From NCBI RefSeq assembly GCF_025149915.1, contig NZ_CP102278.1, positions 682,001 to 746,000 on the forward strand: 64,000 nucleotides of DNA. Direction: 5' to 3'. The number at the start of each line of letters is the position of its first letter. Position 1 is the stretch's first letter. The stretch comes from Coprococcus eutactus (lineage in GTDB: Bacteria; Bacillota; Clostridia; Lachnospirales; Lachnospiraceae). The notes beneath the pieces were generated by a model that was not told the origin of the DNA, made no database searches, and was given only the letters and a program-made list of their open reading frames with translations. The translations under genes and the position numbers were made by a program. This document shows positions 5,511-41,126 of this stretch, in pieces.

Positions 5511-6239
5511 CTACTGCCATGCACCGTCAAAGGTGATGACCTGGCCGTTCAGATAGTTTCCACAGCCGGCTATGCGGCATATGAACTCAGCGGCTTCCTG
5601 TGGCGTTGCCATGCGTCCTGCGGGGATCTCATCCTCCAGCATCTGACGTTCATCAGGCGAGAGATGACCGTTCATGGTCGTATCCACTGCGCCAAAGGCT
5701 ATTGCATTGACCGCTATGCCACTTGGGGCGAGCTCTTTGCCGAGAGCTTTTGAAAATGAGTTTACAGCGCCTTTGGAGGCTGAGTAGGCAACCTCACAGG
5801 AAGCTCCGCAGCATCCCCACACAGATGAGACATTTATGATATGGCCTTTGTGAGCGCGTACCATATAAGGAACAACTCTGTTGCAGCTGTTAAACACTGA
5901 GTATATGTTGGATTTCATGGTTCTGTCAAAATCTTTGATGGTCATGTCGGTGAGAAGCCCTACGTAGGATATTCCGGCGTTGTTCACCAACAGAGCTATA
6001 TCATCACCGAATGTGTCTGTGATGGTTCGTATAAAATTCTCCATGAAATCCATATCCCCGGCATCCCCGCTCATTGCCAGACAGTGACATCCCTTTGCAT
6101 CAAGTTCTTTTTTGAGAGACATGAGCTCGTCTCTGTGTCTGAAAGAAGTGATCGCGATATTGTTATATGAGTCAGCAAGCTTTAAAGCAGTGGCCCTTCC
6201 GATTCCGGTAGAAGCTCCGATTATTATTGCAGTATCCAA
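5511..6239 (-). CDS. SDR-family oxidoreductase (FabG-like)
   Basis: A 242-residue short-chain dehydrogenase. The Rossmann motif GASTGIG is at residues 8-14, NNAGIS marks the dinucleotide-binding core, and Ser/Tyr/Lys catalytic residues are in the VSSVWG and YSASKGA regions. FabG-type enzymes reduce 3-oxoacyl-ACP, but this lone copy lies outside a fatty-acid operon, so the substrate is unknown. The TTG at 6239 is chosen: it starts the protein at MDTAIIIGAS, the usual family N-terminus, and AAGGAGG lies 9-10 bases before it. Its leader consists of two structured repeats, with a good promoter placing the transcript start at the first repeat. Confidence 0.85.
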   Translation of the reverse strand: MDTAIIIGASTGIGRATALKLADSYNNIAITSFRHRDELMSLKKELDAKGCHCLAMSGDAGDMDFMENFIRTITDTFGDDIALLVNNAGISYVGLLTDMTIKDFDRTMKSNIYSVFNSCNRVVPYMVRAHKGHIINVSSVWGCCGASCEVAYSASKGAVNSFSKALGKELAPSGIAVNAIAFGAVDTTMNGHLSPDERQMLEDEIPAGRMATPQEAAEFICRIAGCGNYLNGQVITFDGAWQ

Positions 6240-6264
6240 AAAATGACACCTCCTTGCCATAAAT

Positions 6265-6350
6265 GTGGAACAGGCACATGAAAAGTCGCTACGCGAGGTG
6301 CCTGCGTGCTTCACAAGGACTCTCCCGTAAGCGGGTCCTCCTCGTGAAAA
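6265..6350 (-). repeat. Structured leader repeat, copy A
   Basis: An 86-bp unit read on the minus strand, ending 25 bases before the SDR start codon. It folds into a small hairpin (CCCG/CGGG) inside GGA..TCC and a larger one (GCAGGCAC/GTGCCTG) with an inner CGC/GCG stem; a CTTGTGAAG segment joins them. Copy B adjoins it and a third copy lies at 40695-40776. Base changes between copies keep the pairing, which argues for a conserved RNA. Confidence 0.75.
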
Positions 6351-6437
6351 GTGGAGCAGGCACATGAAAAGTCGCTGCGCGAGGTGCCTGCGTGCTTCAC
6401 AAGGACTCTCCCACAGAGTGGGTCCTCCTCGTGAAAA
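6351..6437 (-). repeat. Structured leader repeat, copy B
   Basis: An 87-bp unit, nearly identical to copy A and directly adjoining it on the upstream side of the SDR gene. Its first hairpin is CCCAC/GTGGG where copy A has CCCG/CGGG, a pairing-preserving change. A minus-strand promoter at 6440-6468 would start transcription within a few bases of this copy's 5' end, so both copies would be in the 5' leader RNA. Confidence 0.75.
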
Positions 6438-6439
6438 TT

Positions 6440-6468
6440 ATTATATCATGTGAATTACATGTTGAAAA
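6440..6468 (-). promoter_or_regulatory. Promoter of the SDR gene
   Basis: On the minus strand TTTTCA (6468-6463) and TATAAT (6445-6440) are separated by 17 bases. The expected start is near 6433, at the edge of leader repeat copy B. Its -35 box overlaps that of the divergent LytR_C promoter. Confidence 0.55.
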
Positions 6469-40647: not shown

Positions 40648-40694
40648 AAAAATGCTGTGAAGAATTTTCGAAATTCACAGCATTTTATTTTCAT
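40648..40694 (+). terminator. Terminator after the TPM gene
   Basis: AAATGCTGTGAA pairs with TTCACAGCATTT, extended by an inner AATTT/AAATT stem, and followed by TATTTT. The structured repeat copy C starts at its end. Confidence 0.8.
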
Positions 40695-40776
40695 AAGGAG
40701 GGACCCACGTAAGTGGGAGGATTCCTTGTGAAGTACGCAGACGCCGCGCGAAGCGCCTAACATGCGTCTGCTCCTT
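40695..40776 (+). repeat. Structured leader repeat, copy C
   Basis: An 82-bp relative of the tandem copies at 6265-6437, here on the plus strand. Its hairpins are CCCAC/GTGGG and GCAGACGC/GCGTCTGC, and AAGGAG/CTCCTT close the whole unit; the linking CTTGTGAAG is unchanged. Two positions of the main stem differ from copies A and B by paired changes. It ends 17 bases before the start codon of the next ORF. Confidence 0.75.
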
Positions 40777-40793: not shown

Positions 40794-41126
40794 ATGGGAC
40801 AGATAGTAGATATAAGCACTTCAGATGAAATGGATAGCGGTGTATTCAAATTTTATCTCGGGGAGCAGGGATTGACATCACTTGATATATTTGGAAATGC
40901 AAGGTCGTGGATGTCAGGTGAGGCATACCAGAGCTTTGGAGGATATAGAGAGGGCGCGGCTATCCCTCAGACTGAACATGAGCATACAGGCAGTTCAGAT
41001 ATATACTATGGCGATGAGGAGCCAAGAGTTATAAATAAGATAGTGTATTGCCACAAGGATGGAACAGAGGTTGCGACTCTCTGGGAGGAGAACCAGAATC
41101 TGCCGATCCTGAACAGTGAAAAATAG
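40794..41126 (+). CDS. Unknown 110-residue protein
   Basis: A soluble acidic protein (MGQIVDISTSDEMDSGVFKFYLG) with a few aromatic residues and no motif I recognise. The GAGGGA before the ATG is a weak and too-close ribosome site, so the start is uncertain. It directly follows structured repeat copy C, in the same relation as the SDR gene to copies A and B. No operon partner is evident; the flippase gene starts 162 bp later. Confidence 0.5.
   Translation: MGQIVDISTSDEMDSGVFKFYLGEQGLTSLDIFGNARSWMSGEAYQSFGGYREGAAIPQTEHEHTGSSDIYYGDEEPRVINKIVYCHKDGTEVATLWEENQNLPILNSEK

Follow-up and report, generated by a model that had tools for sequence, protein, structure and literature searches.

In glycine riboswitches, two structured units lie in tandem in a leader. 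Among interspersed repeats, the BOX elements of Streptococcus pneumoniae are small and modular (boxA-boxB-boxC) with a repeatable module, and according to the passages of PMC3049150 that treat them, they are predicted to fold on transcription, are transcribed as operon extensions and likely affect the genes co-transcribed with them. The two-hairpin repeat of Coprococcus eutactus analysed here resembles BOX, as described in those passages, in being modular, structured and intergenic, with a variable number of modules and no transposase gene of its own, and differs from it in consisting of a hairpin 1 and a hairpin 2, in forming tandem arrays of whole units, in occurring in Lachnospiraceae and in lying near base-exactly at stop codons and at tRNA and tmRNA ends; the likeness is one of description, not of sequence. 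With REP/BIME sequences, as covered in the passages of PMC2817692, it shares imperfect palindromes, an extragenic location, many copies, mosaic arrays and compensatory changes, and with the staphylococcal STAR elements (PMC3532100) of another Gram-positive group, again by description only, the arrangement as interspersed intergenic direct repeats. We consider it highly probable that the copies studied here belong to a multicopy Lachnospiraceae family of two-hairpin elements, likely non-autonomous and mobile, often placed at gene ends and predicted to be co-transcribed with their neighbours.

The copies lie in a 64,000-nucleotide stretch of the C. eutactus genome (the window), for which an earlier note had reported two adjoining minus-strand units of 86 and 87 bp and a third copy on the plus strand, an arrangement borne out by the sequence. 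Unit B (87 bp, 6351..6437, minus strand) is nearest to a promoter-like sequence and stands head-to-tail with unit A (86 bp, 6265..6350, minus strand), both defined by sequence and RNA fold, while unit C, a single copy defined also by a covariance-model match, occupies 40688..40774 on the plus strand; its start is at 40688 (TTTTCATAAGG) and not at 40695 as first given. Hairpin 1 of unit B (6395..6437, minus strand) consists of an outer stem, a GGA/AGA-type internal loop and a CCCAC/GTGGG inner stem, and hairpin 2 (6356..6391, minus strand) joins an outer stem GCAGGCAC/GTGCCTGC to an inner stem of 4 bp, with a bulge on the 3' side. Their counterparts, by sequence and RNA fold, lie at 6309..6350 and 6271..6305 in unit A (minus strand) and at 40688..40733 and 40737..40771 in unit C (plus strand). 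In all three window copies, the outer stem of hairpin 1 is long, its internal loop consists of purines and its inner stem is GC-rich; hairpin 2 pairs over 8 bp in the outer and 4 bp in the inner stem and is bulged on the 3' side.

None of 200 shuffles was as stable as the two-hairpin fold of any copy (z = -3.9, -4.1 and -6.1), and the compensatory paired differences that had been named between the copies are real in the sequence. The supposed invariant linker, CTTGTGAAG, turned out to be the 3' arm of the hairpin-1 outer stem, which pairs with TTCAYRAGGA and varies elsewhere in the C. eutactus genome (TTACGAAG, TTATGATG). The bare 9-mer CTTGTGAAG, allowing at most one mismatch, was not enriched in the window (19 found versus 16.0 expected), so that the signal is the whole unit.

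We then considered the consensus in a larger alignment. A pattern search gave 96 hits in records L065-L144, of which 79 were kept after removal of Pseudobutyrivibrio-type, Treponema-type and truncated ones; 74 of these were distinct, and 59 of them together with three C. eutactus units made up alignment A2. Across these 62 sequences, hairpin 1 comprised five covarying pairs and then AAGGA/NCCTT, with GGGA/AGGA as the internal loop and CCC/GGG as the inner stem; in 29 of 61 sequences, the last A of AAGGA had no partner. Pairing dropped between the fifth pair (89%) and the sixth (28%). Over 15 pairs, 93.9% of 929 cells were paired, compared with 80.7% in shuffled and 37-48% in slid controls, and 122 cells had changed on both sides compared with 29.0 after shuffling; among the C. 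eutactus units, 96.3% of cells were paired. Two further counts did not exceed their shuffled controls, namely the number of pairs with a change on both sides in A2 (7 versus 6.8) and that of further pair types in the own-genome units (14 versus 15.0). Covariation, whose disappearance in a larger alignment had been proposed as a refutation, thus persisted, with more paired changes.

Non-Watson-Crick paired cells were G-T in 126 and A-C in 48 cases over 156 rows, a count in which rows are related, making its binomial p nominal, and up to 10 A-C cells fall at the AAGGA/N position, where they are not truly paired. By set, the G-T to A-C ratio was 25:3 in C. eutactus, 38:9 in genome G134, 51:25 at the GTDB loci, 4:2 in G280 and 8:9 in G119. 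This excess points, in most sets but not in G119, to a strand that folds as RNA or as single-stranded DNA. The conserved internal loop with its 5-bp covarying stem suggests that an RNA or single-stranded DNA function, and not persistence alone, has been under selection, a point against the mobile-element reading.

The earlier note had known three copies and proposed a covariance model as a means of finding others. Once built, from 17 own-genome units, the model revealed many more: a DNA search of the 3.11-Mb C. eutactus genome returned 16 matches, and the model at least 51 at E<=10, at least 30 at E<1e-6 and at least 23 at E<=1e-10, with 150 of 509 candidates scored and opposite-strand echoes included among the weak matches. 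Units occur singly or in head-to-tail arrays, several of the own-genome matches being in tandem, an arrangement unlike the alternating one of REP/BIME arrays in the passages cited above. Identity within arrays was 0.937 (9 pairs) versus 0.755 between arrays (127 pairs), which indicates that arrays are homogenised. Composite arrays (L009, L039, L046 and L058) carry another hairpin module, either in place of the interior of hairpin 1 or as an insertion behind it, and a degV-like locus has an ordinary hairpin 1 in the congener G002 (L048) and the replaced form in C. eutactus (L039). A third module, made of GCGCACTGATGTGCGC and GTCATCAAGC..GCTTGACGAC-type hairpins, recurs within the composite copies L009, L046 and L058.

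The proposed search of Lachnospiraceae genomes likewise yielded matches that were widespread but patchy. A hairpin-1 core scan of GTDB contigs recovered at least 120 stretches, mostly from Lachnospiraceae with some from Treponema and single others. With the hairpin-1 core model (R2) at E<=1e-4, at least 31 of 299 Lachnospiraceae genomes, one per genus, were positive, and in eight of these 31 the matches at E<=0.001 numbered at least 142, 73, 58, 21, 18, 15, 13 and 11. At least three of 398 phylum-wide genomes had matches, all in the same family, as did at least three of 60 genomes sampled from genus to order and at least two of five in the genus itself (C. eutactus and G002). All of these are lower bounds, since at most 19, 14, 74 and 150 candidates per genome were scored in the 299-genome, 398-genome and 60-genome sets and the eight-genome counts, respectively. 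The patchy phylogeny is one support for a REP-like repeat in kind. No phage, plasmid or viral contig matched the query used.

Two other hairpin types surfaced in these records. Treponema records L080, L081, L102, L124 and L127 hold long hairpins with the same AAGGAGGGMCCC..GGGAGGATTCCTT tip, and where both flanks are covered, the outer arms differ by locus yet stay mutually complementary. Pseudobutyrivibrio records L065, L067, L069, L074, L097, L112, L114, L121, L132 and L137 hold long hairpins in which two internal loops of the GGGA/AGGA type are stacked, several of them lying, by eye, shortly before start codons; in the eight of these ten loci that were scanned, Rfam gave no match. The Pseudobutyrivibrio hairpins are possibly a separate leader RNA.

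Comparison with close relatives revealed filled and empty sites at three of the four loci tried. Between trpE and trpG there are three units in C. eutactus, one in G002 and none in G003 and G004, with no match in G001. The TrpE stop codon (..SQDIS*) falls within the ATATCATAAGG end of the repeat, and the opposite end carries TAAGGAGGA, the putative Shine-Dalgarno sequence of trpG; in C. eutactus, 246 nt separate this sequence from the trpE stop codon, and in G004, trpE and trpG overlap. The ribBA-ribH junction is filled in C. eutactus and G002, is a 37-nt spacer in G004 and holds other sequence in G001 and G003. The G003 spacer (L343) carries an unrelated insert of about 0.3 kb with inverted repeats. 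The SDR locus beside units A and B is filled in C. eutactus and empty in G001, G002 and G003, with G004 unaligned there, and the region of the third copy had no synteny in G001-G004. Insertion would be the simplest reading of these sites, with loss in relatives possible in part. Mobility of the repeat is well supported by such comparisons, from which we infer transposition itself.

No terminal inverted repeat or target duplication of the kind that marks a classical MITE was evident by eye in the units and the filled and empty sites, whose exact ends are not fixed; the AAGGAGG shared by the two sides at trpE-trpG may be a duplication or part of a unit. Exact insertion at the Shine-Dalgarno sequence with target duplication was considered and set aside, as trpE-trpG fits it and the SDR locus does not.

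At the SDR locus, the short-chain dehydrogenase gene (PF00106; 5511..6239, minus strand, TTG start) lies 3' of units A and B, with a Shine-Dalgarno-like AAGGAGG at 6245..6255 (minus strand, from sequence) and a promoter-like TTTTCAA..TATAAT just upstream of unit B (6440..6468, minus strand, from sequence comparison with relatives). The listed ATG open reading frame beginning at 6365 starts within the repeat, and the spacing of 25 bases reported between repeat and gene holds with the TTG at 6239 as start. G001-G003 have the SDR gene and a similar promoter-like sequence without the repeat, so that units A and B would be transcribed as the 5' leader of the SDR mRNA, as judged from sequence. Unit C is preceded by a terminator-like hairpin with a T tract, read from sequence, that runs into its 5' end (40649..40691, plus strand) and followed by a 110-aa open reading frame (40794..41126, plus strand) with no Pfam match at E<=0.01.

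A leader holding two tandem structured units is reminiscent of a glycine riboswitch, and a cis-regulatory RNA of this kind, whether riboswitch or protein-binding leader, that controls its downstream gene would account for the strong covariation, the excess of G-T over A-C on one strand, the promoter-like sequence just upstream at the SDR locus and the sense orientation of the downstream gene in 61 of 90 arrays (60 of 89 without repeated places). We nevertheless regard this explanation as very improbable. The neighbouring genes, which resemble trpG, ribH, nrdR, rpiB, degV and an antisense metE, have no evident common pathway (names were read by eye from translations, except for the SDR gene and a TPM domain); congeners retain the same gene without the repeat; at least 142 matches occur in one genome; and copies follow tRNA and tmRNA genes. 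The unrelated neighbours, the tRNA and tmRNA gene neighbours and the mostly antisense copies of G119 (sense upstream gene in 2 of 21 arrays) make a riboswitch leader unlikely. Unlike glycine riboswitches, the repeat has no conserved target pathway, is multicopy and likely mobile, and matched no Rfam family in the scans described next.

The Rfam scan at the gathering score, covering the window, 20 loci of relatives and 20 own or G002 loci, gave no match over the element, the only hits at these loci being tRNA, tmRNA, TPP, lysine riboswitch and drum; nor did a scan at relaxed E-value of one 401-nt own stretch and four loci. Membership of a riboswitch or other Rfam cis-regulatory family was rejected for lack of a curated match and of a consistent leader position before related genes. 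One array (L004:1786-1984) precedes a lysine riboswitch by about 70 nt and another (L011:1633-1741) follows a TPP riboswitch at about 45 nt; insertion of the repeat may modulate known riboswitch leaders.

Placement relative to genes was evaluated on 142 arrays from 128 loci, of which 112 were kept, the 30 left out having been placed inside a long open reading frame by a crude gene finder. Four of the 142 repeat others (two the same place under two names, two identical repeats elsewhere), and two places were counted on both strands. The upstream gene was sense in 46 of 88 arrays, and in 22 of these 46 (22 of 45 without repeated places) its stop codon fell between -7 and +5 nt from the first base of the hairpin-1 stem; in nine it lay exactly at -7, so that TAA or TGA of the stem itself is the stop. 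A stable RNA lay within 400 nt in 15 of the 142 arrays. Where a tRNA or tmRNA was upstream in sense orientation, the stem began 4-6 nt past the RNA in 10 of 11 cases, one of the 10 (a tRNA case, L085, E 4.6e-5) having only a weak match to the repeat, and 17 nt past it in the other; five of these sense cases, in five records including C. eutactus, are tmRNA genes. The other four arrays comprise two beside an antisense tRNA (0-1 nt) and two with a sense tRNA downstream. In G119, the start codon of the antisense gene lies 16-30 nt away in 13 of 19 cases (12 of 18 without repeated places). A location bias is present, but is directed toward stop codons and the 3' ends of stable RNAs and not toward 5' leaders only.

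Such near base-exact positions after tRNA, tmRNA and stop codons, together with the strand-specific G-T excess in C. eutactus and G134, would also be expected of a host-recruited 3'-end or intercistronic RNA element, a stabiliser or processing site selected at gene ends and mobile only formerly. We judge this explanation unlikely, though worth keeping in view, given presence in at least 31 of 299 genomes in a patchy pattern, the antisense placement without strand bias in G119 and a unit number that varies between congeners at one locus.

Considering that the repeat is palindromic, extragenic, multicopy and mosaic, as REP/BIME sequences are, we searched for Y1 (RAYT) or IS200/IS605 transposases that might move it. 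Pfam Y1_Tnp was found in 5 of 11 searched genomes, including G001 and G004, where no element match was found, and was not detected in G119, the genome richest in matches, or in G002, G205, G221, G021 and G003. C. eutactus itself has one such gene, and across its genome and the 11 others, two of eight Y1 genes had a hairpin-1 match within 0.5 kb, both outside the transposase unit, with the gene match about 125 and 460 nt away; none of the eight lay between two inverted repeat copies. The C. eutactus Y1/RAYT-like gene (genome positions about 1,045,490-1,046,800; L047:941-1080 and 2200-2250) has another repeat, GTACCGACGAGTGTCCC and TATCAGGGACGTTCCTTTTGTATCGG, on its flanks. Unlike REP/BIME in the passages of PMC2817692, the repeat has no flanked rayt gene and, by inspection, no GT(A/G)G head: its 5' flank is AT-rich and runs into the variable 5-bp stem, and GTGG occurs in some records only within that stem. 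Nor does the genome with most matches show a Y1 transposase. That these are classical REP/BIME sequences moved by such an enzyme is thus hardly credible to us, and a RAYT/IS200 origin was rejected as the general driver, Y1 not being detected in the richest genome and the own Y1 gene being bounded by GTACCGACGAGTGTCCC. The Y1_Tnp search did not identify a mobilising enzyme.

A quite doubtful but specific variant is a bacterial SINE-like element, an enzyme-less structured RNA that becomes joined to transcript 3' ends and is copied back into DNA. Spread in this way would account for several features: insertion 4-6 nt past tRNA and tmRNA ends, at stop codons and behind the T tracts of terminators; a mostly sense orientation except in G119; the G-U excess specific to one strand; and the fact that neither terminal repeats nor Y1 transposases are evident.

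Of the two readings offered by the earlier note, the REP-like structured repeat holds in kind, because of the many copies, the empty sites in relatives, the patchy phylogeny and the unrelated neighbours, and the tandem cis-acting RNA akin to glycine riboswitches does not. For the mobile two-hairpin family that we favour, a putative trans-acting enzyme would copy the unit into intergenic DNA, where copies that keep a stop codon and a Shine-Dalgarno sequence around them would survive best, and recombination or slippage would enlarge and homogenise arrays. In transcripts, the hairpins would serve as 5' leaders, spacers between cistrons or 3' trailers and may alter coupling, stability or termination in cis; we infer such an effect on expression.

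A search of the open-access literature by title and abstract opening, which cannot prove novelty, found no description of the two-hairpin repeat; the passages available from PMC3733652 held none on the searched taxa, and those from PMC10969869 were not on these bacteria. The repeats apparently form an interspersed, modular, structured family undescribed in the searchable literature, one that works like BOX or BIME and differs from them in architecture, placement and the lack of a Y1 partner. If this is true, Lachnospiraceae, a major gut family, carries a widespread interspersed repeat without a match to an Rfam model in these scans, and this repeat reshapes operon junctions, as with the 246 nt between the trpE stop codon and the Shine-Dalgarno sequence of trpG in C. 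eutactus, where the two genes overlap in G004. Its near-exact placement at the 3' ends of tRNA, tmRNA and coding genes would make the spread of transposase-less repeats testable by strain comparison.
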